The notes under the pieces were generated by a model. It was not told the origin of the DNA. It made no database searches and saw only the letters and a list, made by a program, of their open reading frames with translations. Below are positions 1 to 14,942 of a stretch of 51,367 nucleotides of DNA, piece by piece (the first letter of the stretch is position 1; each line of letters opens with the position of its first letter). Source of the stretch: Candidatus Peregrinibacteria bacterium (lineage in GTDB: Bacteria; Patescibacteriota; Gracilibacteria; UBA1369; JABINC01). The stretch is taken from contig JAUYJN010000040.1 of NCBI GenBank assembly GCA_030700255.1, forward strand, positions 1 through 51,367. Direction: 5' to 3'. The position numbers were made by a program, and so were the translations under genes.

Positions 1-14
1 CCATTTCTCTCAAA

Positions 15-80
15 GCGCGCGGTGAAACCTGGCACCGCGCGCCTGTCCTTAGCTTCTCATCAAAAAATTGTCATTTTTTG
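15..80. repeat. Two adjacent hairpins at the left edge
   Basis: Two stem-loops lie next to each other. The first has a perfect 10-bp GC-rich stem (gcgcgcggtg / caccgcgcgc, 15-24 with 33-42) and an 8-nt loop. The second pairs caaaaaat (61-68) with attttttg (73-80). They precede a perfect palindrome and the recombinase remnant. They could be transcription terminators or structured ends of a mobile element; the sequence does not decide which. Confidence 0.5.
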
Positions 81-116
81 AAGAGAAGCATGGAGGCTAG
101 CCTCCATGCTTCTCTT
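81..116. repeat. Perfect 36-bp palindrome
   Basis: Each base from 81 to 98 pairs with its partner from 116 back to 99, with no loop and no mismatch (half-site aagagaagcatggaggct). It lies just outside the 3' end of the inverted recombinase remnant. A loopless perfect palindrome of this length is unusual outside mobile-element ends, recombination sites or protein-binding sites. Its role is unknown. Confidence 0.8.
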
Positions 117-147
117 TGAAATAAGTCCGAACTTCGCCATAGGTGCA

Positions 148-432
148 GCTCCAAACGGAATATTGCGAAATTTTTGCGGTCTGCGCCCACGGAAAACCCA
201 ATTCCACGGCGGCTTTTTGGCCGATGATATGGAAGTTCGCCGCGCGAAGCGCGGAATAAACCACAATGGTATACTGTTTATTTTACCACTGTGGTTTATA
301 GCCAATTTTTTGCATTTTGCCGAAGGCAAAACTTCTAAATTTCCAGTCAAAGAAAGCGACAATTTTTGCCCAAAAGCGATACGAAATTTGCAACCCTGCT
401 GGACTTGATCTATTATTGTGGCGGACACAAAT
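148..432 (-). pseudogene. Inverted, internally deleted copy of the serine recombinase locus
   Basis: The minus strand carries pieces of the neighbouring recombinase locus in the same order but with the middle removed. 148-239 matches 1938-2029 (about 90 of 92 bases). 300-314 matches 1923-1937, 332-346 matches 1893-1907, 349-368 matches 1154-1173, 366-382 matches 930-946, 390-404 matches the leader at 513-527, and 423-432 matches 507-516. About 60 bases without a match, containing an imperfect palindrome (around aaaccaca/tgtggttt), interrupt it at 240-299. Reading frames are broken, so it cannot encode a recombinase. It resembles a MITE-like derivative of the full-length element. At least one junction (930-946 to 1154-1173) overlaps by a few bases, which suggests microhomology deletion. 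Confidence 0.8.
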
Positions 433-471
433 AGCAGACTGCACGGATTTTTTTAATCCAGATTGAAGCTC

Positions 472-2029
472 CAAACGAGCAACTCTGTACAGATTCGTGC
501 AAACGCATTTGTGTCCAGCAGGGTTGCTCCTTTGGGATTATCACTTAACCAAAAGGTCTATGAAATATTATCTCTATGCTCGCAAATCTACAGATGAAGA
601 CGACCGCCAAGTTCTCTCTATTGAAGCACAATTAACAGAACTAAGAGAATATGCCTCTAAAGAAAAATTAGAGGTAATTGATGAATTTATAGAAAGCAAA
701 ACAGCTAAAGTGCCAGGCAGACCAATATTTAACAAAATGATTGAGCAAGTTGAACTTGGCGGTCATCCGGATAATAACGTGGGAATTTTAGCGTGGCATC
801 CTGATAGGCTGGCAAGAAATAGCATTGATGGAGGCAAAATCATCTATTTAATTGATGAGCAGAAAATTGAATCGCTAAAATTCCCTACCTTTTGGTTTGA
901 TAGCACGCCGCAAGGAAAATTCATGCTCAGTATCGCTTTTGGGCAAAGTAAATATTACATTGATAATCTTTCAGAAAACATTAAACGTGGCATACGCCAG
1001 AAGTTAAGGCGCGGCGAACTGCCCGGGCTTGCACCAGTAGGTTATTTGAACGAATTAAGGCATCACACAATCGTAAAAGACCCTGAAAGATGGAAGGCAG
1101 TTCGCACGCTCTTTGAGGCGTATGCCACTGGTGAGAAAACACTTGAAGATTTACAAAAATTGTCGCTTTCTTTGGGCTTGGTGAGCCGACGTACTGACAA
1201 AGCATTGTCGCTGTCGCGACTTGATGGAATGTTACAAAATCCATTCTATTATAGTGTTATTACCAGAAAGGGCGAAGCCTACCAGGGAAGCCATGAACCG
1301 ATAATCTCAAAGCAACTTTTTGATAAGGTGCAGCGGGAAATGCAGAAACGATCTAAGCCACGAAAGGCAAAAGAAATTGCGGCTTTTGCCTTTCGTGGGA
1401 TCTTTACTTGTGGAGAGTGTGGCCGTGCTATTACAGCAGAAAAGAAGGTGAAAAAATCCGGCCGCACCTACATTTATTACCGCTGCACCAAAAAGAACCG
1501 TGTTTGTAGCCAGAAATATGTGGAGGAGCGAGAACTTGTGAAACAACTCAATGAGCTTTTTCAAAAAGTTGCTTTGAGTGATGACTGGAAAGAAAAATTT
1601 ATGAAACAATGGGAGCTTGATTACAAAAAGGCTTCGACCGCTTCGTCCTCTTCCGCCGGTGAAAGTAAAATGGAACTCAAGGTACTGGAAGAAAAGCAAA
1701 TGCGCCTTCTTGATGCCTACCTTGAGCAAACCATAACCAATGAGGAGTACACGGAAACCAAGAAGAAGCTATTAAACCGCAAAATTGAAATCAAAGAGAA
1801 TTTAAAGGAATCCGGCGGAAGAGGACTCTACTGGCTCGAACTCTTCAAAGAATGGATTTTGTCGGCTCACCAAGCCATCAACTACGTTGATTCTGGAAAT
1901 TTAGAAGAAAAGCGGAGCTTTCTGCAAAAAATTGGCTCGAACTTCTACATCATCGGCCAAAAAGCCGCCGTGGAATTGGGTTTTCCGTGGGCGCAGACCG
2001 CAAAAATTTCGCAATATTCCGTTTGGAGC
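472..2029. mobile_element. Putative recombinase-only integrative element at tRNA-Gly
   Basis: The segment is bounded by gctccaaacg on the left (472-481) and its reverse complement on the right (2020-2029). The right copy overlaps the last three bases of the tRNA-Gly gene. The only gene inside is the large serine recombinase. The same 9-mer also starts the inverted miniature copy at 148-156. tRNA 3' ends are classical integration targets, so the right boundary is well supported. The left boundary is inferred from the repeat alone, and a larger element extending left of the window cannot be excluded. Confidence 0.45.
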
Positions 2030-2035
2030 ACGTAA
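560..2035 (+). CDS. Large serine recombinase (resolvase/integrase family)
   Basis: Site-specific DNA recombinase of about 491 residues. The N-terminus YYLYARKSTDED carries the nucleophilic serine (Ser10) of the resolvase catalytic domain, followed by the central recombinase domain. A zinc ribbon follows, with CGEC at about 283 and a C-x6-C pair near 308-315, and then a coiled-coil-rich C-terminus typical of large serine integrases. I chose the ATG at 560 because the catalytic domain starts there; an in-frame ATG at 497 adds 21 residues unlike the family. The last codons run into the 3' end of the oppositely oriented tRNA-Gly gene, as expected for an integrase next to its attachment site. A degraded inverted copy lies immediately upstream. 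Substrate sites and directionality factor are not visible. Confidence 0.92.
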   Translation: MKYYLYARKSTDEDDRQVLSIEAQLTELREYASKEKLEVIDEFIESKTAKVPGRPIFNKMIEQVELGGHPDNNVGILAWHPDRLARNSIDGGKIIYLIDEQKIESLKFPTFWFDSTPQGKFMLSIAFGQSKYYIDNLSENIKRGIRQKLRRGELPGLAPVGYLNELRHHTIVKDPERWKAVRTLFEAYATGEKTLEDLQKLSLSLGLVSRRTDKALSLSRLDGMLQNPFYYSVITRKGEAYQGSHEPIISKQLFDKVQREMQKRSKPRKAKEIAAFAFRGIFTCGECGRAITAEKKVKKSGRTYIYYRCTKKNRVCSQKYVEERELVKQLNELFQKVALSDDWKEKFMKQWELDYKKASTASSSSAGESKMELKVLEEKQMRLLDAYLEQTITNEEYTETKKKLLNRKIEIKENLKESGGRGLYWLELFKEWILSAHQAINYVDSGNLEEKRSFLQKIGSNFYIIGQKAAVELGFPWAQTAKISQYSVWST

Positions 2036-2098
2036 CGGGAATCGAACCCGTATTTCTGCCTTGGCAAGGCAATGTAATAGCCACTATACGATACGTGC
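2027..2098 (-). tRNA. tRNA-Gly (anticodon GCC)
   Basis: Read on the minus strand, the gene folds into a complete cloverleaf. The acceptor arms GCACGTA and TACGTGC pair perfectly. The anticodon stem TTGCC/GGCAG encloses loop TTGCCAA with anticodon GCC. The T arm is ACGGG-TTCGATT-CCCGT. CCA is not encoded. The 3' end overlaps the last codons of the serine recombinase and the element core gtttggagc, so this is the probable integration target. A terminator-like hairpin separates it from the gene upstream. Confidence 0.93.
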
Positions 2099-2710: not shown

Positions 2711-3478
2711 CTATTTGAATTCAACAAAAAACAATGCGATTATATCTATGACGAACAAAAGTATGATGATTCCTTCGAGTAAGGTTGATCTTTTTGAATT
2801 TAGAAAATCGAGGATAAATGAAACGCTGTCAAAAATAGTAGTTAATTTATGACTTAGAATTTCATAACGTTCTTCGATTTCGTAGAACTCAAGTAGGTCG
2901 TTATAGAATTTGTCGAGTGGCTCATCATCCCAAGTTATATCTGGTTTATCGAGTAGGGCCATTTGAGTAACTATCATGTGGCGAACATTCATGGCAAAGC
3001 CGACTCTTTTTAAGAGTTCTTTGTGAGAGAGTGATGATCTTCCGCGTTCAGCAAATGATTTCATAACTGTTGCAAAATTGTTGAGTACTTGATCGACCTC
3101 TCTATCATAGTGATCCAGCGCGACAGAGCGTCCGAGGATCAGTGAAATAACTGCGATTTTTTCGATGGTTATTTCGTCAACTTTTATTTCATGTGTACTA
3201 GTTTCATTTTTCTTATTCCCTGCTTTGACTTGAATCTCTTCCTCCATAGGTATTTCAAAACTTTCAACCAAAAATTCTCGTAATTTGTTTGAAAATTCAT
3301 TAACTTCTCCTGAGGAGAAATTCCAAAATACAGCAACTCCGTATTTGAGGAGCACGACGTATTTACCTTTACCATATTCGATAATTAGAGGGTCTTTGTG
3401 AGATGCTTTTACGCCAAGTTTAGTTGGGATTTCGCGCAGATGGAATTGTCTTCCGAGATGAAGGGCATGGACTTGCAT
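2711..3478 (-). CDS. RMND1/Rmd1/YagE (DUF155) family membrane protein
   Basis: A 255-residue protein with the layout of the RMND1/Sif2 (DUF155) family. An N-terminal alpha/beta region includes the hydrophobic strand YGVAVFWNFS. A middle helical region has ILGRSVALDHYDREVD, then the characteristic ERYEILSHKLTTIFDSVSF stretch. A C-terminal transmembrane helix (about 234-251) ends just before the stop, giving a tail-anchored topology. In eukaryotes the family acts at the mitochondrial membrane in translation support; bacterial function is poorly defined. It lies on the same strand as the TrmB-like gene, with a promoter-like sequence upstream. Confidence 0.75.
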   Translation of the reverse strand: MQVHALHLGRQFHLREIPTKLGVKASHKDPLIIEYGKGKYVVLLKYGVAVFWNFSSGEVNEFSNKLREFLVESFEIPMEEEIQVKAGNKKNETSTHEIKVDEITIEKIAVISLILGRSVALDHYDREVDQVLNNFATVMKSFAERGRSSLSHKELLKRVGFAMNVRHMIVTQMALLDKPDITWDDEPLDKFYNDLLEFYEIEERYEILSHKLTTIFDSVSFILDFLNSKRSTLLEGIIILLFVIDIIALFFVEFK

Positions 3479-3577: not shown

Positions 3578-4441
3578 TTAGCCAAATAGTGTTGGTAACT
3601 CCAATGACTTTTTATCATGGATTATTGGCTCAGAGAGCTTTGAATCTTCAGGTAATTGAATGTCAATTTCGATAGGGCAGTGGTCTGAGCCAAAAATATT
3701 ATTGAGAATACTGGCTGATTTTAGATGTTTCCGTAGCTTTGGATCTATCATCGTGTAGTCGATTCTCCAACCTACATTTCGGGCTCTGGCATTTGAGATA
3801 TAATGCCACCAAGTATAGTGCTCTCCTTCTTTTTCAAATTCACGAAAAGTGTCTATAAATCCTAGATCCTCCGTTACCCAGTCGAGCATTTTGCGTTCTG
3901 CGATTGTAAATCCTATGCTTTTCTCATTTTCTTTTGGGCGAGCGATGTCGAGTTCGGTGTGGGCGATGTTAAAATCTCCGTTGATGATCACTGGTTTCCC
4001 GGTTTTTTTTGAAAGATCTGCAAGGTGTGCAAATAGATATTTGTAAAAATCAAATTTGAAATTAAATTGGTCTTCGTTGCGTCCTCCATTTGGAAAATAT
4101 GCTGTGCAAAATAAAAATGAGTCGAATTCCGCAATTGTGCTCCGGCCCTCTGTGTTGTGGTATTCATGGTCGAAGTCTGCGTATTCAAAATGATACCAAA
4201 TATTCAGGGGTTTCACCCTGGTCCAGAGGGCCGTCCCTGCATAACCTTTTTTTATCGCTGGATTCCAGTATGTGTAATAGTTTTTTGGGTAAAGTAATTC
4301 ATCACTCAGTTGATCGTGAGTTACTTTTATTTCTTGAAAACCTATGAGATCCGGTGCATCCGGCCCATCCAAATATCCGAAGAAATCAGGTTTCTTCATT
4401 ATGGCACGGACTCCGTTGACGTTCCAAGCTGCAATTTTCAT
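3578..4441 (-). CDS. xth: Exodeoxyribonuclease III (AP endonuclease)
   Basis: A 287-residue member of the ExoIII/APE1 branch of the endonuclease/exonuclease/phosphatase fold, acting in base-excision repair on abasic sites and 3' blocks. All signature motifs are present: NVNGVRA near the start, the Mg-binding Glu in FQEIK, the tyrosine-containing CTAYFPNGG, GDFNIAH with catalytic Asp/Asn, WRIDY, and GSDHCPIEID with the catalytic Asp-His. Length is normal for the family. It is transcribed leftward, away from tRNA-Phe. Confidence 0.95.
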   Translation of the reverse strand: MKIAAWNVNGVRAIMKKPDFFGYLDGPDAPDLIGFQEIKVTHDQLSDELLYPKNYYTYWNPAIKKGYAGTALWTRVKPLNIWYHFEYADFDHEYHNTEGRSTIAEFDSFLFCTAYFPNGGRNEDQFNFKFDFYKYLFAHLADLSKKTGKPVIINGDFNIAHTELDIARPKENEKSIGFTIAERKMLDWVTEDLGFIDTFREFEKEGEHYTWWHYISNARARNVGWRIDYTMIDPKLRKHLKSASILNNIFGSDHCPIEIDIQLPEDSKLSEPIIHDKKSLELPTLFG

Positions 4442-4510
4442 GAATTCAAATATACAAAATAAGCGATATGCACTCTACAATAATATTAGAAAAAATGTAA
4501 GAAAAATTGT

Positions 4511-4538
4511 TTGTAAATTCAGGTTCCTTTGATATACT
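4511..4538 (+). promoter_or_regulatory. Promoter for tRNA-Phe
   Basis: TTGTAA, a 16-base spacer and TATACT lie 22 bases before the tRNA-Phe gene. The -10 matches the consensus in 5 of 6 positions and the -35 in 4 of 6. Confidence 0.5.
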
Positions 4539-4560
4539 CAGCCGGCAAGTTTTTATACAT

Positions 4561-4635
4561 GCCCGGGTAGCTCAGTGGTAGAGCAGAGGATTGAAAATCC
4601 TCGTGTCGGTGGTTCAATTCCGCCCCCGGGCACCA
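4561..4635 (+). tRNA. tRNA-Phe (anticodon GAA)
   Basis: Complete cloverleaf. Acceptor GCCCGGG/CCCGGGC, D arm GCTCAGTGGTAGAGC, anticodon stem GAGGA/TCCTC with loop TTGAAAA (anticodon GAA), T arm GGTGG-TTCAATT-CCGCC. The 3' CCA is encoded, unlike in the tRNA-Gly of this window. Confidence 0.97.
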
Positions 4636-4638
4636 CTC

Positions 4639-5397
4639 TTAATAGAATTTCTCGTGATGGATCTTGTCTTCACTTAGACCCATCTCTTTGAACGTGTCGA
4701 CAACTTCTTTGATCATATCGCCGTTTCCACATATAAAAATTCTTAGATTTTCTAAGTCCAAATTCGCACCTGGTTTGAAGTCGCCACGTTCTTTGTATTC
4801 TTGAATTAGATTTGTAATACGGCCGCGGTTACCTATCCATGAGTCCTGTGGGCGAGATAATGTAAGCTTGTAATCGATGTTTTTGTGAGCCTGCGCCATA
4901 CCGTTAAATAGTTCATCATAAAAGATGTCTTCCTCATGCCTGACTCCAAAAAACAAAGTCATATTACTTCTGAAATTCATTTCGATTTGGTATTCCATCA
5001 TGCTTTTCATAGGGGCAACTCCCGTTCCTGTTGCGATCATTAGCATGTTTTCAGTGTAGTTGTCTTTGGTTGCAAAAAGCCCAAAAGGCCCATTTCCTGT
5101 AATTTCATCGCCTACGTTTAATGAGCCAAGATGACGCGACCCTGGGCCATCAACTAATTTTATACAGAGCTCGAGATGCTCTTTTATTTTTGGATTCGAA
5201 GCGATCGAATATGAGCGAACTATACGTTTTTCATCTGATGGAATATTGATATTTATAAATTGTCCTGGCTCAAAATTGAACGGAGTTGTATCAAGAGGTG
5301 TAAACGTGAATTCCCACACATCACGAGTGAGCTCAAGTTTTTTTGCGAGTTTAAATTTTACCGCAGTTGGTTTGTAAATTGGAGGTATTAAAGCCAT
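4639..5397 (-). CDS. FAD/NAD(P)-binding oxidoreductase (ferredoxin-NADP reductase family)
   Basis: A single-subunit flavin reductase of about 252 residues. The N-terminal FAD-binding barrel carries RSYSIAS (flavin-binding RxYS) and GPFGLFA. The NAD(P)-binding domain carries GTGVAPMKSM, GVRHEEDIFY and the terminal ICGNGDMI motif. No iron-sulfur or globin domain is fused. The physiological electron partner cannot be told from sequence. I start at the ATG giving MALIPPIYKP; an in-frame GTG 24 bases upstream is possible. The stop is four bases from tRNA-Phe, on the opposite strand. Confidence 0.85.
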   Translation of the reverse strand: MALIPPIYKPTAVKFKLAKKLELTRDVWEFTFTPLDTTPFNFEPGQFININIPSDEKRIVRSYSIASNPKIKEHLELCIKLVDGPGSRHLGSLNVGDEITGNGPFGLFATKDNYTENMLMIATGTGVAPMKSMMEYQIEMNFRSNMTLFFGVRHEEDIFYDELFNGMAQAHKNIDYKLTLSRPQDSWIGNRGRITNLIQEYKERGDFKPGANLDLENLRIFICGNGDMIKEVVDTFKEMGLSEDKIHHEKFY

Positions 5398-5478
5398 GTT
5401 GATTTGATTATTTTCCAGCACAATATAGCAAATAATCCTTTTTTAACAAAGAAGATCATGAACACTCCTCATAAAATA

Positions 5479-6492
5479 CTACATTCCAAAATCAGTTTCA
5501 TAGTATCCAATTTCCAAGTTCTTCATCATCATAAATTTCTCATCCATGACGTGTGCGATGTCATGATGCTCTTTGCAGAGTGGCGCCAGGAAATGAGGGT
5601 TATTGCTGCCAGTTAGCCCAAATCTCGCTGTGTGATGAATATTTTTTGATTCTCTCGCACAACCTGGCGCCGCACATTTAACCCCAAATTCTTCTTCAAG
5701 TATTTTTTTTGTTTCAACTCCGATGTATCTCACCGGCCTTTTGCCATCTGCCTTACGTTTCCATTCTTTTTTTGCCACATACTCCGCATTTCTCACCTTT
5801 TTTCCCGCCAAATCTTCGTTTCGCTTCACGAAACCACCTCTCACAATTTTATCTATATCGATGCCTTTTTCTTGAAGTGCCAAAAGATGATTAATCGTAT
5901 CTTCAGCAAGATTTAACTGTGCTTTTTTCAAAATAATCTCCTGGCTTTGTATATTGATTTGAGAGGCTTGCACGTGCAGACTTTTTGCATCGATTTGCGG
6001 CTCAAATAAGCCATTTTGATTTCTTAAGTCTGACTCACCCCCTCTCTTAACATCACGAACCAGAACCTCAAGTGAACGATTTGATAAAACTTCCGCACTC
6101 GCAGCCAAAATCGATTCATTTGAAACATTTGCAATAGAAACGATTCTAGACAATTTGTTAATACTTACTCGACCTTCGACTAGAGCTCTGCGCAAAACCG
6201 GTTTATCTTCAAAACGTTTTTCTAGATTTATCGCAAGCCGTATTTGATCTTCGCTCAAGCCCGCCATACGTTTGCCAAATTCAAATATCGAGCCATACCC
6301 TTTTTTCTCATAAAGTTTGCGACGATTGGCTTCAGGAAGAAGTCCTATGAATTTTTGCCGCCAAAGTAGCGCCTGCGTGCCATATTTTTTACAGAGAGCG
6401 AGAAGTTTTTTATCTGAAAAATTTGTAAGTGGAAGATTGGAAGATTGAGAAAAAGATGAGGTAGATAGTTCAAATATTGCATTAGAATTCAT
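5479..6492 (-). CDS. HNH nuclease-domain protein, copy 1
   Basis: A 337-residue protein with an N-terminal helical domain (about 25-165, including EANRRKLYEKKGYGSIFEF), a low-conservation linker (about 165-190) and a second helical segment (NLAEDTINHLLALQEKG). A C-terminal HNH/McrA-like domain has zinc-ligand pairs in CAAPGC and PLCKEHH, catalytic IHHTARF and final HHDIAH. Two other loci in the window encode the same architecture and a further partial copy lies at the right edge. The linker DNA (5968-6024) resembles repeats found in several intergenic regions. The ATG at 6492 begins MNSNAIFELS; an upstream TTG/ATT extension is unlikely. HNH proteins cut DNA, but the target and role of this multicopy family are unknown. 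Confidence 0.8.
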   Translation of the reverse strand: MNSNAIFELSTSSFSQSSNLPLTNFSDKKLLALCKKYGTQALLWRQKFIGLLPEANRRKLYEKKGYGSIFEFGKRMAGLSEDQIRLAINLEKRFEDKPVLRRALVEGRVSINKLSRIVSIANVSNESILAASAEVLSNRSLEVLVRDVKRGGESDLRNQNGLFEPQIDAKSLHVQASQINIQSQEIILKKAQLNLAEDTINHLLALQEKGIDIDKIVRGGFVKRNEDLAGKKVRNAEYVAKKEWKRKADGKRPVRYIGVETKKILEEEFGVKCAAPGCARESKNIHHTARFGLTGSNNPHFLAPLCKEHHDIAHVMDEKFMMMKNLEIGYYETDFGM

Positions 6493-6761
6493 ATGGTAGA
6501 AGTTTAAAAAATAAGAGGTTTTCAGTGGATTTAAATTACCAAAAGTACGCTTAAAAATCAAGACTTAAAAGCTCGAAAAGTAGCTAAGGCAAGCGACTTG
6601 CGCCATTTTGACGTGACGATTTGTCAAGAATATTTTATGGTGAGCGAGCGCTACCCTTGGGGCGAGGGGCACGCTTCTCTAAAATTCACCCTGGAAATTC
6701 CGTCACCTTCGAATTCATGTGTTAGCTCATTAGAAAACCTAACCTAACTTATTATAAATCA
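6493..6761. other. Intergenic region between divergent genes, no gene seen
   Basis: No credible coding frame or RNA gene is visible between the HNH gene and the promoter at 6762. The middle part (about 6640-6700) is GC-richer than the rest and contains short imperfect hairpins. It must hold the promoter of the leftward HNH gene, which I could not pin down. Confidence 0.4.
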
Positions 6762-6790
6762 TTGAATTTTACCCTAAAATATGCTATTAT
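6762..6790 (+). promoter_or_regulatory. Sigma70-like promoter for the 6827 gene
   Basis: TTGAAT, exactly 17 bases, then TATTAT. The predicted transcript starts near 6797, about 30 bases before the ATG of the small secreted protein. One of the better promoter matches in the window. Confidence 0.6.
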
Positions 6791-6826
6791 TACATGATAA
6801 TTCAAAAGATTTAAGACAAAAATAAA

Positions 6827-7156
6827 ATGTCAAAGAAGAAAATTTTTATGGCTATGCTGGTTCTAACTATGATGCTGAGTGGATTTTCTTTGGCTATAGA
6901 GACTGATGGTATGGGGAGTTCAGTTGCCAGTATTCTTAAATATGACGCTTTGACTGGCCATGAACAGGTTTTGAATTCTTTGGAAAAGGTAAAAAGGAGA
7001 GATAAGGTTGCACGAACCGATGTTATGCAATTTATCAAGCATGAAGATATAAAGGATTTTCGAGCGACCAATGGTGCAGTTAGTAATTCGATGATAGTTG
7101 AACAGGCGAGAAGAGATATTGAATCGGTTGATATGAGGTTCGAAGACCTTAAATAA
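6827..7156 (+). CDS. Small secreted protein of unknown function
   Basis: A 109-residue protein with a clear signal peptide: a positively charged start (MSKKK), a hydrophobic core of about 15 residues and a likely cleavage after FSLA (about residue 23). The mature part is charged and helical (QVLNSLEKVKRRDKVART, EQARRDIESVD). I recognise no family. The start follows the A-rich leader aaaaataaaATG with no Shine-Dalgarno. It stands before the diadenylate cyclase gene but has its own promoter. A second promoter and a hairpin follow it, so co-transcription with dacA is doubtful. Confidence 0.75.
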   Translation: MSKKKIFMAMLVLTMMLSGFSLAIETDGMGSSVASILKYDALTGHEQVLNSLEKVKRRDKVARTDVMQFIKHEDIKDFRATNGAVSNSMIVEQARRDIESVDMRFEDLK

Positions 7157-7165
7157 GCGGAGACA

Positions 7166-7194
7166 TTGACTTAAGGCTGTATTTTCGGTAGATT
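7166..7194 (+). promoter_or_regulatory. Sigma70-like promoter for dacA
   Basis: TTGACT, 17 bases, TAGATT. The expected transcription start (about 7201) coincides with the first base of a stem-loop that ends two bases before the dacA start codon, giving a very short, structured leader. Confidence 0.5.
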
Positions 7195-7200
7195 TCTACT

Positions 7201-7224
7201 CCACTAGTGAATAGTGGTTTTTTT
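7201..7224 (+). terminator. Terminator-like hairpin abutting the dacA start codon
   Basis: CCACTA-GTGAA-TAGTGG followed by seven Ts forms a small intrinsic-terminator-like structure. It could end the transcript of the upstream secreted-protein gene. If the promoter at 7166-7194 is used, it would be a 5'-terminal hairpin of the dacA mRNA instead. The ATG at 7226 follows the T run at once. Confidence 0.5.
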
Positions 7225-7225
7225 A

Positions 7226-8047
7226 ATGTTCAAGATGGAAATTTTGGGTCAAATACTGGCGAAAGCAATCACATTCATATCTGATCAGGTCATCAACGCA
7301 TGGCAGACTATAAATTATATGGATATTTCAATGTATCAAATTTTTGTTGATATATTTGTGGTGACGATACTTTTTTATTGGATTATTCAGCTAGTTCGAG
7401 GGACAAAGGCAAAGCAAATCCTGACTGGCCTCGCTCTACTTGGATTTCTTTATATAATCAGCAGAGCATTCAATTTGATTGCGCTGGAGTGGTTACTCCG
7501 AAATTTCTTTACAGTTGTGCTTATTGCGATTCCGATTATATTCCAGGAGGAGATAAGGCGAGGGCTCCAGAGAATAGGAGAGACTAAGTTTTTGTCGTCA
7601 TCTAGCCATGTAACGCATGACGTGATCAAAGAAATTGTTCATGCTACGTTTGAAATGGCTGAAAAACGGCATGGGGCATTGATTGTTTTTAAAAAAGAAG
7701 TGAGTTTAGAAGAATATGAATCTACTGGTATTGAGATGGACGCAAAGGTAACTTCTCCGTTGATTGAATCTGTATTCAATCCAAAGGCACCACTTCATGA
7801 TGGAGCGGTAATTATACATGGAAATAAATTGAAATATGCAGCCTGCATACTTCCTCAGTCTGTTAAGAAATTTGATAAAAAATTTGGTACTCGGCACAAA
7901 GCCGCAATGACACTTTCTGAATATACTGATTCAGTTATTATTGTGGTTTCCGAAGAGCGAAAAGTCGTATCTGGTGTATATGATGGGGAAATATACGAAG
8001 ACCTTGAGGTCTCAGAGCTTACGAATTTCCTGAAAAATAATTTATAA
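7226..8047 (+). CDS. dacA: Diadenylate cyclase (c-di-AMP synthase), CdaA type
   Basis: Makes cyclic di-AMP from two ATP. Three transmembrane helices in the first 105 residues (for example FVVTILFYWIIQLV and FFTVVLIAIPIIF) are followed by the DisA_N catalytic domain with QEEIRRGLQRIG, PLHDGAVII (DGA motif, about residue 192) and FGTRHKAAMTLSE. The second active-site motif is usually RHR; here it is RHK, a conservative change worth noting. Length about 273 residues, as usual for CdaA. A YbbR-domain gene follows seven bases downstream, the standard cdaA-cdaR pair. A GTG at 7214 lies inside the hairpin and is an unlikely start. Confidence 0.93.
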   Translation: MFKMEILGQILAKAITFISDQVINAWQTINYMDISMYQIFVDIFVVTILFYWIIQLVRGTKAKQILTGLALLGFLYIISRAFNLIALEWLLRNFFTVVLIAIPIIFQEEIRRGLQRIGETKFLSSSSHVTHDVIKEIVHATFEMAEKRHGALIVFKKEVSLEEYESTGIEMDAKVTSPLIESVFNPKAPLHDGAVIIHGNKLKYAACILPQSVKKFDKKFGTRHKAAMTLSEYTDSVIIVVSEERKVVSGVYDGEIYEDLEVSELTNFLKNNL

Positions 8048-8053
8048 ACATAC

Positions 8054-8980
8054 ATGAAAATAAATCTTTTTAAAAATTTACCATTTAAAATATTTGCGCT
8101 GCTACTAGCTGTCAGCTTTTGGTTTTTCTTGATAATTTTTCAAAATGTTATTTATGACGTGCCGGAGGCATTAACGATACAAGTGCTCAATAGCCCGACA
8201 GGTGTTGAGATCGCAAATCCTTTGCCGGAAATAGTTGTTAGGGTTACAGCCCCAAAAGATGATACGGCGTTTTTGCACGCTGAAGAATTCAAAGCACAGA
8301 TTGATTTAACCGGTTTAAAAGAAGGCGTTCATAAATTGCCTATTCGCGTTAGTACTGAAAAAAGCAATGTTAATATAGTGTCTTATATCCCTCGTGAAGT
8401 TGAAGTTACTTTGGAGGAAATAGAAACAAAATCTTTTGCTATACGTGCGGAGATCGTAGGGTCGCCAGCTCCAGAATATTCTATAGGAGAGTCTTTATAT
8501 AGTACTAGGAAGGCTACGGTAAAAGGACCGAGTAGCTTGATCAATTCAATAGCTTATATTGGCCATAAGATTGAGCTGACCGGACAAGATAAGGTGAATA
8601 TAAAAAATACTTATACATTGGTAGCTTACGATGAAGATGGCGAGCCGATAGATCACAGTATCAAAATAACTCCGGAAACTGTCAGTACGGAATTGCAGTT
8701 GGTCAAAGAGCTCGGTGAAAAGTTAGCATTTATATCATTGCAATATGCTGAGGATGTCGATGTGACACGTATAAATGGCACCATAATTAAACCATCAAAT
8801 ATTCTCATTAGGGGGAGACTTACTGACTTGGCAGATATATTATCAATCAAAACAGAGCCTCTAACGGTGGATGATATTGAGAAAATTATTACCGGTGGAG
8901 AATTCTTTGTAAAACTTGTTATTCCTGATAATGTTACTTGGGTGAATGAAGATCAAAAAGTAACAGTAGAAATCAAATAA
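8054..8980 (+). CDS. cdaR: YbbR-domain protein (CdaR-like)
   Basis: A 308-residue protein with one N-terminal membrane anchor (FKIFALLLAVSFWFFLIIF) and an extracytoplasmic chain of YbbR-like beta repeats. Repeated patterns such as YIPREVEVTLEEIE, KATVKGPSSLINSI and SNILIRGRLTDLADI mark at least three repeats. In Firmicutes CdaR binds and regulates the membrane diadenylate cyclase CdaA. The position right after dacA supports the same role. No Shine-Dalgarno. Confidence 0.88.
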   Translation: MKINLFKNLPFKIFALLLAVSFWFFLIIFQNVIYDVPEALTIQVLNSPTGVEIANPLPEIVVRVTAPKDDTAFLHAEEFKAQIDLTGLKEGVHKLPIRVSTEKSNVNIVSYIPREVEVTLEEIETKSFAIRAEIVGSPAPEYSIGESLYSTRKATVKGPSSLINSIAYIGHKIELTGQDKVNIKNTYTLVAYDEDGEPIDHSIKITPETVSTELQLVKELGEKLAFISLQYAEDVDVTRINGTIIKPSNILIRGRLTDLADILSIKTEPLTVDDIEKIITGGEFFVKLVIPDNVTWVNEDQKVTVEIK

Positions 8981-8983
8981 TTT

Positions 8984-9688
8984 ATGAGAAATAATATTAC
9001 GGTATGTGTACCTATCAGGTGTACTACCTTCGAAGAAGTTGTTAATAGTGCAAAGAAGTCATTGTTAGAAGGTGCTGATATGGTTGAGGTATGGCTTGAT
9101 TCATTGCCATTTACTTATGATGTTTCCCGCAAAGATCAGAAACTTTTAAATGAATTGTTTTCGTTGATAGACTTGCCGATTTTATGTGTTAACAAAGGAG
9201 ATATAGAGCACGGGTCTTTTGATGGTAGCGAGGAAGCGAGAGTGGGTTTGCTTTGCAAGGCCGTGATTGCCGGAGTTGATTTTGTTGATATAGGGATCCA
9301 CACATCAAAAGATCTCGTGCAAAATTTAAAAAATGTTATCGAAGAAAATGGAGGTATAACTCAGATCATTATTTCATATCATAATTTTGAGAAAACTCCT
9401 TTATTTGATGAACTAAAAGCTGTGGTACAAACTGCCGATGAATTGGGAGCGGATATTATAAAAATTTCTACATACGCGACTGAAGAAAGTGATAATGATG
9501 TAATATTTGCAATGCTTGATTTAATTCACAAAGAAGGTAAAAAAGGTATAGGTGTATGTATGGGAGAGAATGGAGCGCGCTCTAGGATAGATTCACACAA
9601 TCATGGTTCTCAGTGGACATATGCGGCACTCGATGAAGATTCTAAGACAGCCACCGGCCAGATAACAATTAATGAACTGCATGGATAA
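8984..9688 (+). CDS. aroD: 3-dehydroquinate dehydratase, type I
   Basis: A 234-residue type I DHQ dehydratase, a Schiff-base TIM barrel converting 3-dehydroquinate to 3-dehydroshikimate. The family residues are present: Glu in MVEVWLDSL (about 36), the catalytic His133 in SYHNFEKTP and the Schiff-base Lys160 in IIKIST. The C-terminal GVCMGENGARSRI is close to the usual MG..G..SR. The start is three bases after the cdaR stop, and the end overlaps the next gene by 17 bases, so co-translation is likely. No other shikimate gene lies in the window. Confidence 0.9.
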   Translation: MRNNITVCVPIRCTTFEEVVNSAKKSLLEGADMVEVWLDSLPFTYDVSRKDQKLLNELFSLIDLPILCVNKGDIEHGSFDGSEEARVGLLCKAVIAGVDFVDIGIHTSKDLVQNLKNVIEENGGITQIIISYHNFEKTPLFDELKAVVQTADELGADIIKISTYATEESDNDVIFAMLDLIHKEGKKGIGVCMGENGARSRIDSHNHGSQWTYAALDEDSKTATGQITINELHG

Positions 9689-11951
9689 ATTCACGCCACC
9701 AATTCAAAATCTATATGGATATTTAAAAGACCTTGCGATGAATCAGGGGGGTAAGACTGTACTCGCTTCGTATTCAAAAATAGGTGAACTTATTGAAGAA
9801 ATTTCATACAAGGATTTTCTGCAATTGGTTGAAAAAGTTGGAGCGTGGATGATTTATAAGGGGCTAAACCCCGGAGATAGAATCGCGATTCAATTTCCGA
9901 ATTCTATTGAATTACTTGTGCTTAGCTGGACAGCTTGGAGCATCGGTATTGTGAGTGTGCCACTCGATACTAAGCGTGATACGATCGATGATATAAAATA
10001 CAAAACAGAACTTGCGAATACCAAGTTGACTTTGAATCCTAAGAATTTTAATTTTGAAATTATAAATGAGGTATTGGAAGCTGTGGGAAATATAGATATT
10101 CCATGGAAAGAAAGTTTGGATCATGAGGCTTTGATTTTGTTTACTTCAGGGACGACCGGGCGCCCAAAGGGCGCCTCACTTAGTCTCCAAAATCTCATTG
10201 CAAATGGAGATGGAATACGTGAATGGTTCAGTATTACAAGTGATGATATTTTCATGGTGATACTTCCTTTGCATCATATAAATTCTACGAGTTTTTGTTT
10301 TGCATCATTGCTCGGTGGAGCAAGCATTGCGATTCCACCGGCTTATTCCGCTTCTCAATTTTGGGCACAGGTCGCTCGGACAAAGGCGACATTCACATCA
10401 ATAGTTCCTACAATTTGTTATGATCAGACTTCAATGCTTGGTGAATATGTAAAATGTCATGAGAGTGTTCGGCTGAAAAAAATTCAAATAGGATCGGCAC
10501 CGGTAAAGCCGAGTGAGGTTCAAAAATTCATGGATCTTTATAAGATTCGTCTTTATCAAGGTTACGGTCAAACAGAAACTGCATTGCGAGTAACCGGTAT
10601 CCCACATGACGTATCGGAAGATCTGTATAAAAAACTTATACAGGAGAATTCTATAGGAGTGCCTATGAAGTGGGCGGAAGTCACAGTGCTCAGCTCTGAT
10701 GGACAAAAGCTAAAGGAAGACGAAGAGGGAGAGCTTGCAGTCAAAGGCCCAATAGTTATGAAGGGTTATATTGGTGGCGAAAAAGCATTCAATCCTGACG
10801 GCTGGTTCATGACCGGTGATTTGGCATATTTTAAAATGATAGGCGATAGAAAATTTTATTATCTTTTAGGGCGTCTCAAAGAAATCATAATAAAAGGTGG
10901 AGTCAATATTTCACCGTCCGCAGTGGAGGATAGGCTCAAGCAAATAGATTCGAATATAGATAAAGTTTGTGTGATTGGTGTGCCGGATGATAGATATGGA
11001 GAAGAAATCGCAGCAGCCATAGTTTGGCACAATGCCAAAAATGAAACACAAATCTCAAGATTTGAAGTTGAGCTAAAAAGAAAACTCGCATCAGAACCAT
11101 CACAAATTTCAGCATATGAAATCCCTGCGTATATAGTGACAATATCTGAAGATGAAATCCCTATGACTTCAACTCGCAAAGTTCAACGTTCAGTTTTAGC
11201 TAGTCAAATCGACAAAAAAAAACTTCAGCCGATTTTACAAATTACAAAAAATAATATGTACGAATTTATTTTACTCAAATCAAACAACAAGCCATATATG
11301 AAGCGGGCTTTTGAGCTTTACAATCATTGCTGGGATCCACTTACGATAGATATGAATAAGTTCGTGCAATACATCGATAATGGAACGACCATCCTCGCAA
11401 CAAAAGATGGCAAAGTTGAAGGATTTCTATCAATGGTTATCACTGATATTTCAGAAGATGAAATTGCAAATTCCACATATTCGCAGATCACAGGAGATTT
11501 AACTTTAAGCACTTCAAAAGAGCAGGGTGACAAAGTAATCTGCGTTGCAATCGGTAGCTCAAATTATGAGAAAAAATCAGTGCTAGACCAACAATTTAAC
11601 GCCGTAAGCAAGCCTCAAACCCCAACTGAGGAAGAGGTTTTGAAATATTTAAATGATGGATTAGACAGCGTATATAAATTTCATTCCGGAGCAAAGGGTG
11701 GTTTGAGTGAAGGGGCATCTCTCATCAAACTTATGCCAAATTCTCGTCCGGAAGATGAATCTTCAATGGGCTACAATATGCTCATGAAATACCCATCACT
11801 TACAGAGCTTGAAATTATCCCAAATTCCTCTCGCAGTATCGGTGTTCAACTGATAGAATCCGCGATGAATTATGCGACTAAGTGCACCCTCCGGGATGTA
11901 TACGCCTTTTCTCGCCCTGCCGGCCTTAAGGAATATTTAACTAAAAAATAA
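9672..11951 (+). CDS. AMP-dependent acyl-CoA synthetase fused to a GNAT-like domain
   Basis: A 759-residue two-part protein. Residues 1 to about 515 form an ANL adenylating enzyme: TSGTTGRPKGAS (P-loop-like A3), YGQTE (A5), GWFMTGDLAYF (A7), GRLKEIIIKGGVNISP (A8) and PMTSTRKVQRS with the catalytic Lys (A10). It should activate a carboxylic acid as acyl-AMP and transfer it to CoA or another thiol. The C-terminal part (about 525-759) resembles a GNAT acyltransferase: GTTILATKDGKVEGFLS, then VICVAIGSS, and SIGVQLIESAMNYATKC before the final AFSRPAGLKEYL. Together they could activate and transfer an acyl group to an amine. Substrate unknown. The start may be the ATG at 9681; neither has a Shine-Dalgarno. 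Confidence 0.85.
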   Translation: MNCMDKFTPPIQNLYGYLKDLAMNQGGKTVLASYSKIGELIEEISYKDFLQLVEKVGAWMIYKGLNPGDRIAIQFPNSIELLVLSWTAWSIGIVSVPLDTKRDTIDDIKYKTELANTKLTLNPKNFNFEIINEVLEAVGNIDIPWKESLDHEALILFTSGTTGRPKGASLSLQNLIANGDGIREWFSITSDDIFMVILPLHHINSTSFCFASLLGGASIAIPPAYSASQFWAQVARTKATFTSIVPTICYDQTSMLGEYVKCHESVRLKKIQIGSAPVKPSEVQKFMDLYKIRLYQGYGQTETALRVTGIPHDVSEDLYKKLIQENSIGVPMKWAEVTVLSSDGQKLKEDEEGELAVKGPIVMKGYIGGEKAFNPDGWFMTGDLAYFKMIGDRKFYYLLGRLKEIIIKGGVNISPSAVEDRLKQIDSNIDKVCVIGVPDDRYGEEIAAAIVWHNAKNETQISRFEVELKRKLASEPSQISAYEIPAYIVTISEDEIPMTSTRKVQRSVLASQIDKKKLQPILQITKNNMYEFILLKSNNKPYMKRAFELYNHCWDPLTIDMNKFVQYIDNGTTILATKDGKVEGFLSMVITDISEDEIANSTYSQITGDLTLSTSKEQGDKVICVAIGSSNYEKKSVLDQQFNAVSKPQTPTEEEVLKYLNDGLDSVYKFHSGAKGGLSEGASLIKLMPNSRPEDESSMGYNMLMKYPSLTELEIIPNSSRSIGVQLIESAMNYATKCTLRDVYAFSRPAGLKEYLTKK

Positions 11952-11955
11952 AATT

Positions 11956-13044
11956 ATGAAAATAGGAATCGTTGGACTCCCAAATGTTGGTAAGTCTACA
12001 ATCTTCAATGCATTGACCAAAAGTAAAGCCGCAAGGGCGGAGAATTTCCCGTTTTGCACTATCGATCCAAATGTAGGTTTGGTTGAAGTGCCGGATTATC
12101 GTATGAAACATTTGGCTGAAATAGTTAAGCCTGAACGTGTACTTCCGGCAGTGGTTGAATTTGTGGACATCGCAGGGCTCGTGAAGGGGGCTTCAGAAGG
12201 TGAAGGGCTCGGAAACAAGTTCCTCGCCAACATTCGAGAATGTGAGGCGATTGCGCAAGTTGTTAGGTATTTTGAAGATGATGATGTTCACCATGTTCAT
12301 GGAAATATAGACCCGAAGCGTGATGTTGAAATTATTCAGACAGAATTGATCTTGGCTGATCTTCAGACCGTTGAAAAACGTTATGGCAAAGCATCCGGGG
12401 ATGCGAAAACAGGAAAAAAAGAAGCGGTAGTATATCTCAATCTTATTGAAAGACTTAAAAACCATCTAGAGAGCGGAGGTATGGCGTGCGAGGTGGATCT
12501 AACCGAAGATGAAGAATTGGAGATAAGAGACTTGCATTTACTCACAGCAAAACCGATCGTATATGTAGTTAATGTCGCAGAACATGAGATTGCAGAATTT
12601 GATATTAGCAAAGCACGGAACGTGCTTGGTCTTCCGGACCACTCACGCCTAGTTCCGATTTCAGCAAAAATAGAAGAAGATCTTATGCAGCTTCCGGAGG
12701 AAGATGCGCAGGAGTTTTTGAAAGAATACGGCCTTGAAGAGCCGGGCCTTAATCGCCTAATCCGCGAAGCTTACGATACTTTAGGATTACATACATATTT
12801 TACAGCCGGAGTAAAAGAAGTGCGCGCTTGGACAATTCCAAAAGGTGCATCAGCTCCGCAGGCAGCAGGTAAAATTCACACTGATTTTGAAAAAGGATTC
12901 ATCCGCGCAGAAGTTGTCGCCTATAATGATTACCTTGCTCACAAGGGTGAAAAAGGCGCTCGTGACGTAGGTAAACTCCGCTCGGAAGGAAAAAGCTACA
13001 TAGTCGCCGATGGAGACGTGATGCACTTCCTAACTTCGAACTAA
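11956..13044 (+). CDS. ychF: Ribosome-binding ATPase YchF
   Basis: A 362-residue, full-length Obg-family P-loop NTPase. G1 GLPNVGKST (6-14), the switch [12 protein letters not shown]3 [10 protein letters not shown], an NVAE motif in place of the canonical NKxD (as in YchF, which prefers ATP), and a C-terminal TGS domain ([13 protein letters not shown], then [12 protein letters not shown]). YchF binds ribosomes and takes part in stress and translation control. It closes the rightward dacA block four bases after the ligase gene and overlaps the convergent antiporter gene by four bases. Confidence 0.96.
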
Positions 13045-14009
13045 AACAAGTACATCCACTCGGGGATCGGCATTACGTCCAGTTTGAATAATATGAATAC
13101 GCCATAGATTGCTATCAATATAGCAGCTTGGCTTTTGTGTAATGTTTCACCCCGCATATTTAAAAGTATCAAGGCTATACAAGAAGAGAGAAACCAAAAA
13201 GGAAGATCAAATCGTAGTAAGTCCATATCAGTCTCAAATCCATTGAACAAAGAACCTATTCCGGTTGAGAGTAGGGGGTCGGTAATATTTGAACCGATAA
13301 GTGTTCCAACTGCTATACTTGGTGCATTTTTCCACATTCCAACGATCGCCGTTGAGAGTTCGGGGAGACACGAAGCGACTCCGATAATCATAACTCCGAT
13401 AAAACTTTCCGATAACCCATGTGCTCTCGCTATGGTAGTCGCGCTTTCAAGTACAAAATGCGCAGACCCAAGCAGGATAGTCATTCCTATAAACAATTGC
13501 CCTATTCTGAAAATCGCAGGTTTATCGCCTGCCGTATGTACACCGAGTAACCTTTTGTTTTCACATATAACATCATTGTGAGCTGTAAACCATATGTAAG
13601 AAATGTATATCCAAATCATCAGAATACCTTCAAACCGTGTGAGTTCACCACCGCTATATAACATCATTCCAAAAATAAGTATTGCGACAAGCATCATTGG
13701 ACCATCTACTTGCATGGCTTTTTTTTGAGAATGTACGTCATGCACCATCCCTGAGATTCCAAGTATAATTGTAATCTGTGCAAGGCAAGACCCAATCATC
13801 GTGCCAATGGCAACATCAGATACACCTCTGGCACCGGAAAAACTCGTTACCATTATTTCAGGCAGGGACGTTCCTATACTTACAACAGTGATTCCGATAA
13901 GGAGCTCAGATATACCAAATCGGCGAGCTATAGCTTTACAGGCTTTGACCACGTATTCAGAGCCAACCCATAGCCCAATCAGTCCAAGTATCAAAAATAC
14001 TATTTCCAT
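13041..14009 (-). CDS. Na+/Ca2+ exchanger family (CaCA, YrbG-like) antiporter
   Basis: A 322-residue integral membrane protein of about 10 helices. The two inverted alpha repeats that form the ion site are clear: the first with SIGTSLPEIMVTS and IGTMIGSCLAQI, the second with GVASCLPELSTAIVG and VGTLIGSNITDPLL. The acidic residues in both (PE) are intact. It should extrude Ca2+ or another cation in exchange for Na+ or H+. The gene converges on ychF. The upstream side is a long repeat-rich interval. Confidence 0.9.
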   Translation of the reverse strand: MEIVFLILGLIGLWVGSEYVVKACKAIARRFGISELLIGITVVSIGTSLPEIMVTSFSGARGVSDVAIGTMIGSCLAQITIILGISGMVHDVHSQKKAMQVDGPMMLVAILIFGMMLYSGGELTRFEGILMIWIYISYIWFTAHNDVICENKRLLGVHTAGDKPAIFRIGQLFIGMTILLGSAHFVLESATTIARAHGLSESFIGVMIIGVASCLPELSTAIVGMWKNAPSIAVGTLIGSNITDPLLSTGIGSLFNGFETDMDLLRFDLPFWFLSSCIALILLNMRGETLHKSQAAILIAIYGVFILFKLDVMPIPEWMYLF

Positions 14010-14550
14010 AATTTTTTGTTTTTATTTCATCTATTAATTATGCCACAAAACAGCGTTATTCTCAACTGTATTATGCGATTTTACGGGTCAATAGCACAAC
14101 ACACTTGTGGTTCTTTAAACAAATTGGGCAATGCTGTGCGCGCACACGTCTTGAACGCCGTACTTCAGACGTCATTCCCGGGAACGGGCGTCGAAATGCC
14201 GTATTTCAAAGTTCAATCTCCATGAAAACGCTTTGAAATGTGTACTTCAGACGTCATTCTTAAGAACAAGCCATGAAGTACGTACTTGAGAGACCATTTT
14301 ATGAGAGAAGTGTGTCTGGGAGTATTTTTTTTAGCAAGTGCATAAAAACCAAATTGTACGGATTATTGTACAATGCCTCCTTCCGGGAAGAGTTTTTGTA
14401 CAAGATAACGTACAAAATCTGTGCACGTGCACACTTCCACATGATCAAAATTCATTAAATTTGTTTTCGCACGTTTGGATTTTTTAGATTTCAGCATCTA
14501 CACGCCCTCAAACATACTTTTGGTTTACCAATTTGTTTAAGGAACCGTTA
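14010..14550. repeat. Palindrome-rich intergenic region with HNH-linker-like repeat
   Basis: About 540 bases without a credible gene. Contents: a 12-bp palindrome tgtgcgcgcaca (14135-14146); an 18-bp direct repeat gtacttcagacgtcattc at 14160 and 14242; an inverted repeat ttgtac/gtacaa (14354-14373); an 8-bp stem ttttgtac/gtacaaaa with loop aagataac (14394-14417); and a perfect 14-bp palindrome tgtgcacgtgcaca (14420-14433). On the minus strand 14394-14440 translates as SVHVHRFCTLSCTKT, matching SVHVHTFRTLFRTF at 46.5 kb. I read it as the trace of an HNH-gene linker or of a repeat shared with it. Confidence 0.65.
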
Positions 14551-14558
14551 ATGGGGTA

Positions 14559-14870
14559 TTGGGAAAAGTTAAATTTTCAACAGGACTTGGCCGTGAAGAT
14601 ATCAAAGCTACTGTAGAAGATCGAGTTGGTGAATATTGTGGGTTGATTAGAATGAAAACTGAAGCTGGCTTTTTATTGATCATCTTAAAAAGGCACGGGG
14701 ATTCTTACATGCTTTCTAAAGCTTTTCTTGATTCAGAACTTAATCAGGTGGAGTGCCAAAATAATGCTATTTTTATATTAGATACGAATAATATGCCAAG
14801 CTATGATGGTATGGATGAGGCTGTGAAAACTATTGTAAATTGGTATTATCAAGATTGTGTCAGTAAGTAA
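14559..14870 (+). CDS. Hypothetical protein, 103 residues
   Basis: No family recognised. The sequence reads like a small compact alpha/beta domain: CGLIRMKTEAGFLLIILKR is strand-rich, and the C-terminus MDEAVKTIVNWYYQD is helical. The only in-frame start near the N-terminus is TTG; the next is the ATG at codon 32. Composition and frame continuity favour a real gene, but the 5' end is uncertain and a lost or shifted N-terminus is possible. Confidence 0.5.
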   Translation: MGKVKFSTGLGREDIKATVEDRVGEYCGLIRMKTEAGFLLIILKRHGDSYMLSKAFLDSELNQVECQNNAIFILDTNNMPSYDGMDEAVKTIVNWYYQDCVSK

Positions 14871-14883
14871 ACCACATGTATCA

Positions 14884-14911
14884 TTGCAGTTCGCTGGGTT
14901 TTTAGTATAAT
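14884..14911 (+). promoter_or_regulatory. Promoter-like element before mnmA
   Basis: A perfect TATAAT lies 31 bases before the mnmA ATG, with a weak TTGCAG sixteen bases upstream of it. Confidence 0.4.
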
Positions 14912-14942
14912 TCTAGCGTTTTTTGTATATTAATGATTTTGG

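Follow-up and report, generated by a model that had tools for sequence, protein, structure and literature searches.

In the Dehalococcoides ssrA islands, the gene of the serine integrase DsiB overlaps the attachment site (att) at its 3' end, and islands are stacked at one RNA gene; in the part of the report cited here, the repeats described are direct, and it is suggested that DsiB may reach its full function only when on the circle or next to another island with the 3' gene fragment (PMC3146451). In the archaeal suicidal integrases of the SSV, pTN3, and pT26-2 type, integration disrupts the element's own integrase gene. The cited part of that work sees in the complete integrase gene a control of directionality and calls self-disrupting integrases exclusive to archaea (PMC8371274). 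In mycobacteriophage BPs, according to the section cited, attP lies in a coding sequence and integration alters the C terminus of the protein (PMC4557955). An inverted second attP is described in none of these accounts of Dehalococcoides islands, suicidal integrases, and integration-dependent immunity, as far as the cited parts go (PMC3146451, PMC8371274, PMC4557955). Two inverted serine-integrase attP sites do flank the cassettes of MiMIC/RMCE, which are man-made. On the small, circular 2-micron plasmid of yeast, a recombinase is accompanied by two inverted target sites; this enzyme, FLP, belongs to the tyrosine recombinases, acts on identical FRT sites, and serves copy-number control. To our knowledge, BPs has no inverted second attP.

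The window, i.e., the whole stretch of 51,367 nucleotides analyzed here, is contig C40 of a 46-contig genome (G000) of a Candidatus Peregrinibacteria bacterium, and its start is a contig end. A sequence-only reading had noticed near this end a serine recombinase gene standing head-to-head with an inverted miniature copy of itself, taken for a recent, MITE-like deletion derivative. We instead find it likely that positions 148 to 432 are half of a second, inverted attP of a compact tRNA-targeting integrative element, for which integrase control would be the likeliest role.

Inverted arms of the recombinase gene

The gene at 560 to 2035 (plus strand) encodes, in its integrated form, a large serine recombinase of 491 aa. 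PF00239, PF07508, and PF13408 all scored above cut-off, bearing out the earlier assignment to the serine recombinases: the protein has a Resolvase N domain, a Recombinase domain, a zinc ribbon, and a long coiled coil, and the model of a homologue shows long helices (330 to 433) and a beta hairpin (mean pLDDT, 75). These domains rule out two systems based on tyrosine recombinases, the integron (IntI with an attC cassette array) and the archaeal suicidal integrase proper (SSV/pTN3 type).

On the minus strand, 148 to 239 is the reverse complement of 1938 to 2029, with two mismatches (229 and 231) in 92 nt (E value, 1e-42), matching the identity of about 90/92 first reported for this segment. Four exact minus-strand pieces follow collinearly, namely 300 to 314 (corresponding to 1923 to 1937), 332 to 346 (1893 to 1907), 348 to 368 (1154 to 1174; 21 nt), and 365 to 382 (930 to 947; 18 nt). 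The longest exact match between leader and gene interior is 21 nt, and shuffled sequences (n = 1000) reached 14 nt at most. The two nearest pieces are the left arm continuing (300 to 346, minus strand) past a 60-nt hairpin insertion at 240 to 299, while the other two (348 to 382, minus strand) are remnants of the recombinase interior, similar to remnants in the leaders of many homologues. The description as an inverted, collinear copy with a missing center thus holds for the 92-nt end and the four pieces, but not for the piece assigned to the recombinase leader: 390 to 404, equivalent to 513 to 527, is the perfect 15-nt terminal inverted repeat (GCAACCCTGCTGGAC) of a separate insertion of about 138 nt (390 to 527). 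Neither insertion, 240 to 299 or 390 to 527, has a counterpart in G037, the genome with the closest homologue (90% identical protein, same anatomy at tRNA-Gly).

The right arm (1893 to 2029, plus strand) encodes the recombinase C terminus, and its end falls within the 3' end of a tRNA-Gly(GCC) gene (2024 to 2098, minus strand); the last codon of the recombinase (ACG) and its stop codon (TAA) come from antisense tRNA-Gly. The last 6 nt of the tRNA gene are shared with a core, GCTCCA, at 148 to 153 (plus strand), which is preceded by a hairpin-rich stretch at 1 to 147 (plus strand). An Rfam scan returned nothing but tRNAs above cut-off.

Conservation of the arrangement

We scanned 84,980 species genomes as well as viral contigs and obtained 83 homologous loci. 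This comparison with related genomes, which had been proposed as a check on the sequence-only reading, settles the origin of the block as an inverted copy of that locus with internal deletions. An inverted copy of the recombinase 3' end was found in 69 of the 83 loci, 63 of them with at least 60 nt, and had a median length of 106 nt and 98.45% identity (range, 74 to 100%; 25 loci at 100%). Seven of the 14 loci without a copy run out of contig beside the gene (L099, L115, L153, L159, L167, L172, and L173). The arrangement was present beside homologues down to about 46% recombinase identity, in Patescibacteria, Omnitrophota, and other hosts, and the inverted copy was absent from all 13 loci of more distant tRNA-gene recombinases of the same order whose gene was readable and had 900 nt or more of upstream sequence. 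In G037, the right arm lies at the tRNA gene and the inverted copy upstream, the arms being 99% alike. Further genomes of the order carry the arrangement at tRNA-Gln, -Ser, and -Pro genes and adjoining tRNA-Leu.

In a quick, midpoint-rooted tree with some long branches, all 65 repeat-bearing sequences fell within one group of 80 members (SH-aLRT, 99). Members from different phyla are neighbors in this group, e.g., Marinimicrobia L163 and Paceibacterota L166, suggesting horizontal transfer.

Because the same arrangement is found at so many loci, down to such low recombinase identity, and at none of the 13 outgroup loci, the left block is an old, conserved part of the element and not a stray fragment. 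It had been called recent on account of its high identity. However, arms are 98 to 99% alike within a genome and 84 to 88% alike between genomes, and this excess of within-genome likeness argues for concerted evolution, not for a young duplication.

The same data bear on the idea that a MITE-like deletion derivative inserted by chance head-to-head beside its parent. Such an origin would account for collinear inverted pieces without the center and for the interior remnants in many homologues' leaders. Nevertheless, a search of the same genome found no second copy of the left block, whereas a MITE by definition has several dispersed, short, non-autonomous copies. The block also keeps its position beside most homologous recombinases, is missing in outgroups, and has P-core as its outer edge, with a partner P on the other side of the cargo (see below). 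We dropped the MITE label and consider a chance insertion of this kind very improbable.

Predicted attP sites

In nearly all loci, the left junction reads P-core-P' and the right junction tRNA-core-P'. In the window, 1 to 147 would be the P half and 148 to 239 the P' half of an inner attP, the right arm would be P' at the tRNA junction, and the tRNA gene, as the integration target, would contribute the B half of attB. The motif GTTCG[AG]A occurs in both P and the tRNA T-arm, the P copy lying 5 bp further from the core; in the window, the half-site motif AAGTCCGAACTTCG (123 to 136, plus strand) is the equivalent of the T-loop GGTTCGATTCC. The shift was exactly +5 in 29 loci, +9 in six, and +1 in two. 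The +9 and +1 scores go back to an anchor that was placed four bases off in sequences of the type CCCCAGCCA, and the correction adds eight loci to the +5 class; in the remaining eight loci, the motif was misplaced or the locus was not at a tRNA gene. In serine integrases, attP and attB half-sites differ by 5 bp in their distance from the crossover (PMC3783163), and the offset seen here is of this size, on the P/B side only. The comparison thus shows the left block and 1 to 147 as an intact P-core-P' attP, opposite in orientation to the one by which the element integrated, and the tRNA junction as attL.

Whole elements and their cargo

In 20 contigs, P was found again 0.9 to 9 kb away, in inverted orientation, with 92 to 100% identity and ending at the core; the length scored was 84 to 156 nt, and up to 334 nt could be aligned in one contig. 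Since this second, inverted P encloses the cargo, the left block would be half of an intact inverted attP. The integrated order, starting from the tRNA gene and ending at the flank, is core-P'-recombinase-P'(inv)-core-P(inv)-cargo-P-core, with an element length of 2.6 to 10.9 kb (median, 6.1 kb). Beyond the core at the distal border, host sequence begins, and the tRNA end forms a direct repeat; L109 and L133 retain the original tRNA CCA. As in tRNA-integrated islands, the homologous elements abut a restored tRNA 3' end and end distally in a short direct repeat. Additionally, in both G008 and G012, a pair of contigs has P in common and parts ways right behind the core, one contig continuing into P' and the other into flank. 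A distal P was not found in eight other contigs with >2.5 kb upstream, some of which run out of sequence, nor was the distal cargo border of the window's own element found in G000. For an empty site, the queried flank gene turned up in too few and too distant relatives, those of G012 being too remote, and G001, of the same genus, had no homologue of the protein encoded at 2711 to 3478, our flank marker. An integron-like cassette array, which we had first drawn from contig ends, was dropped once whole elements showed the inverted-attP layout.

Contig C33 of G000 (L036; 9,466 bp) is bounded on both sides by P in inverted orientation (223 bp, 98.7%), and the outer 141 nt correspond to window positions 1 to 141. 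Between these repeats lies a complete-looking arginine biosynthesis operon (argininosuccinate synthase, carbamoyltransferase, semialdehyde dehydrogenase, class-III aminotransferase, amino-acid kinase, an AstE-like protein, and a lyase), apparently the cargo of the window's element. Judged by the larger ORFs only, cargo consists mainly of restriction/defense genes; other elements have type I restriction-modification genes, DpnI, EcoRI methylase, GmrSD, a reverse transcriptase, an AbiEii-like ATPase, a Schlafen-type protein, an SNF2 helicase, an aminotransferase, and a glycosyl hydrolase. These would be members of a mobile-element family that, across Patescibacteria and some other phyla, moves defense genes and an arginine operon between very small genomes.

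Many contigs, the window included, end just left of the arm, as chimeric joins at contig ends would also have it. Yet arms and P repeats also occur in the interior of long contigs made by many assemblers and in AP024682 (L164), whose record bears the title complete genome; the arms range from 74 to 100% in identity, and breaks are to be expected wherever an inverted repeat exceeds the k-mer in length. An assembly artifact is hardly conceivable. The label k141 stands in several record titles, and the overlap shared by C33 and the window is also 141 nt. We infer that this overlap reflects an assembler k-mer of 141, which would explain the contig breaks. The arrangement also suggests a reason for the frequent breaks next to recombinase genes at tRNA genes in assemblies of these genomes.

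In L164, tandem accretion has piled up three elements or remnants on a single tRNA-Ser gene (4362 to 15181); the tRNA-proximal recombinase is broken, and the middle one is intact, with its tail read from the neighbor's P. Extra, diverged P copies lie past the distal border in L126 (3183 to 6489) and L137 (681 to 4146), as repeated insertion predicts. Contig C157 of G008 (L053) holds several direct and inverted repeats of 90 to 145 bp and, where the contig ends, an N-terminal piece of a recombinase. In G000 itself, recombinase remnants beside tRNA-Gln(TTG) (C9, 234 to 545) and tRNA-Gly(TCC) (C11, 11261 to 11425) are older insertions. A copy of window 91 to 154 (P-core) at C38, 2129 to 2183 (L037), directly adjoins the 3' end of a tryptophan operon (trpA, trpB, DAHP synthase, fused trp genes, and trpE) and could be the edge of another or an older element, or belong to an array.

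Recombinase tail

When the recombinase 3' end was joined in silico to P, as expected on a circle, the frame continued into a conserved tail, usually of 11 to 19 residues, of the form ..[IV]RT[FY]F.. (CTYGEVRTYFKEKHGG in the window, CLYDEVRTHFKASGG in G037, and SLLNEIRTFFQENPDAEF in L122). The motif [IVA]RT occurred in 48 of 60 circle frames, in 2 of 60 integrated frames, and in 2 of 60 and 1 of 60 for the two remaining frames, and tail entropy was 1.11, 0.80, and 1.46 bits at the three codon positions. Given this conservation by frame and variability by codon position, P is predicted to be coding on the circle. In the integrated form, the tail is swapped for 0 to 90 residues from antisense tRNA and beyond, and the tail-truncated genes retain intact frames. 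The inner, older recombinase of L164 reads into the P of the next element, giving a tail in the chromosome. In the AlphaFold model of this naturally full-length homologue, a C-terminal helix (484 to 505) spans the junction and the core interrupts the helix, with confidence of about 82 at residues 491 to 500 and <60 on either side (overall pTM, 0.41). In the same bacteria, recombinases that lack the repeat likewise run into tRNA 3' ends, and loss of the tail alone can therefore not explain the second attP.

In L118 (1517 to 8835), the recombinase reads into a VRTYF-type tail. Downstream stands a different serine recombinase that ends at tRNA-Asn and whose family may encode a similar tail.

Orientation of the insertions

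The recombinase gene has its 3' end at the tRNA gene in 57 loci (isomer A). At least three loci (L115, L119, and L132) represent isomer B, in which the tRNA gene precedes the gene start at the left arm; their contigs break off at the gene 3' end, before the tail, which should be intact in this form. The excess of A could be due to unequal use of the two sites or to loss of B. Of 61 cargo ORFs with 150 aa or more, 60 point away from the recombinase, and cargo genes have the same direction in 20 of 20 elements. Since cargo orientation is constant, frequent inversion is disfavored, and inversion between the repeats must either seldom occur or be removed by selection.

These orientations bear on an invertible switch of the 2-micron or invertase kind, in which the recombinase or homologous recombination would flip the gene between truncated and full-length forms. 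Two near-identical inverted sites do flank the gene, both orientations relative to the tRNA gene exist, and intramolecular recombination between attP sites is known for the A118/LI integrase and CcrAB (PMC3783163). However, the two isomers stand at 57:3, and inversion of either circle segment would randomize the cargo orientation, which is fixed; a switch seems unlikely.

Exact inverted pieces of the gene interior (at least 11 nt) were found in the leaders of 50 of 85 loci, compared with 2 of 85 after shuffling. One leader region differed from its own gene by 0.97 mismatches in 16 and from other genes by 2.81, in loci chosen for a close own match. A promoter or antisense role of these remnants was considered; they make more sense as what is left of an inverted copy of the gene, and we infer that one recombinase may have been lost from a head-to-head pair, in line with the missing center noted in the sequence-only reading. 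The second attP might then be a structural relic of a head-to-head dimer minus one recombinase and one cargo, or a regulatory site, the gene-converted repeats being a recombinase-bound divergent promoter region. The remnants fit this proposal, as does transcription of both recombinase and cargo away from the inner attP, but identity over 200 to 300 bp goes far beyond the needs of an operator, and a relic should vanish in many lineages, whereas almost all members retain the second attP. We hold this explanation to be doubtful.

Discussion

Our preferred reading remains that of a second, inverted attP kept for integrase control. The element would excise as a circle with two inverted attP sites, whose junction we built in silico, and would insert by attP x attB recombination at the 3' end of a tRNA gene. 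On the circle, the recombinase gene would run through P' and the core into P and so acquire the conserved C-terminal tail. Insertion via the attP at the gene's 3' end, giving isomer A, the common state, would swap the tail for antisense-tRNA codons, and the inverted spare attP would store the lost tail sequence beside the gene. After insertion via the spare site (isomer B), the chromosomal recombinase should be full length, and inversion could restore such a gene. Integrase control would then consist of self-truncation after insertion with a built-in return route. Two equally active attP sites would predict A and B in equal numbers, and the observed ratio counts against the model.

A more specific version, which we put forward tentatively, is that the element might be a bacterial serine-integrase counterpart of the archaeal suicidal integrases, in which insertion clips a C-terminal helix and so locks the element. 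The spare inverted attP would hold the missing part of the gene, an insertion through that site or an inversion would give an active, full-length chromosomal integrase, and no separate excision factor would be needed. The model offers a testable answer to the question of how an integrase without a recognized excision factor could control direction.

The open-access full texts that we searched contain no description of a natural serine-integrase element with an inverted double attP, and an earlier account elsewhere is possible. The MiMIC/RMCE cassettes share the two inverted sites, but the element described here is natural and carries the integrase inside. In contrast to the 2-micron plasmid, its attP sites would serve integration into attB, and no replication gene was recognized. 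The gene altered in BPs is that of the repressor and not, as here, that of the integrase. The Dehalococcoides islands, in the part of the report cited, have a multi-gene integration module and a second recombinase, whereas one recombinase, a short cargo, and a conserved tail are found here (PMC3146451). As in the archaeal suicidal integrases, att would lie inside the integrase gene, and integration would disrupt that gene through tail exchange; compared with the systems covered in the cited part of that work, however, the recombinase is a bacterial serine enzyme, only the C-terminal tail would be exchanged, and an inverted spare att is kept (PMC8371274).
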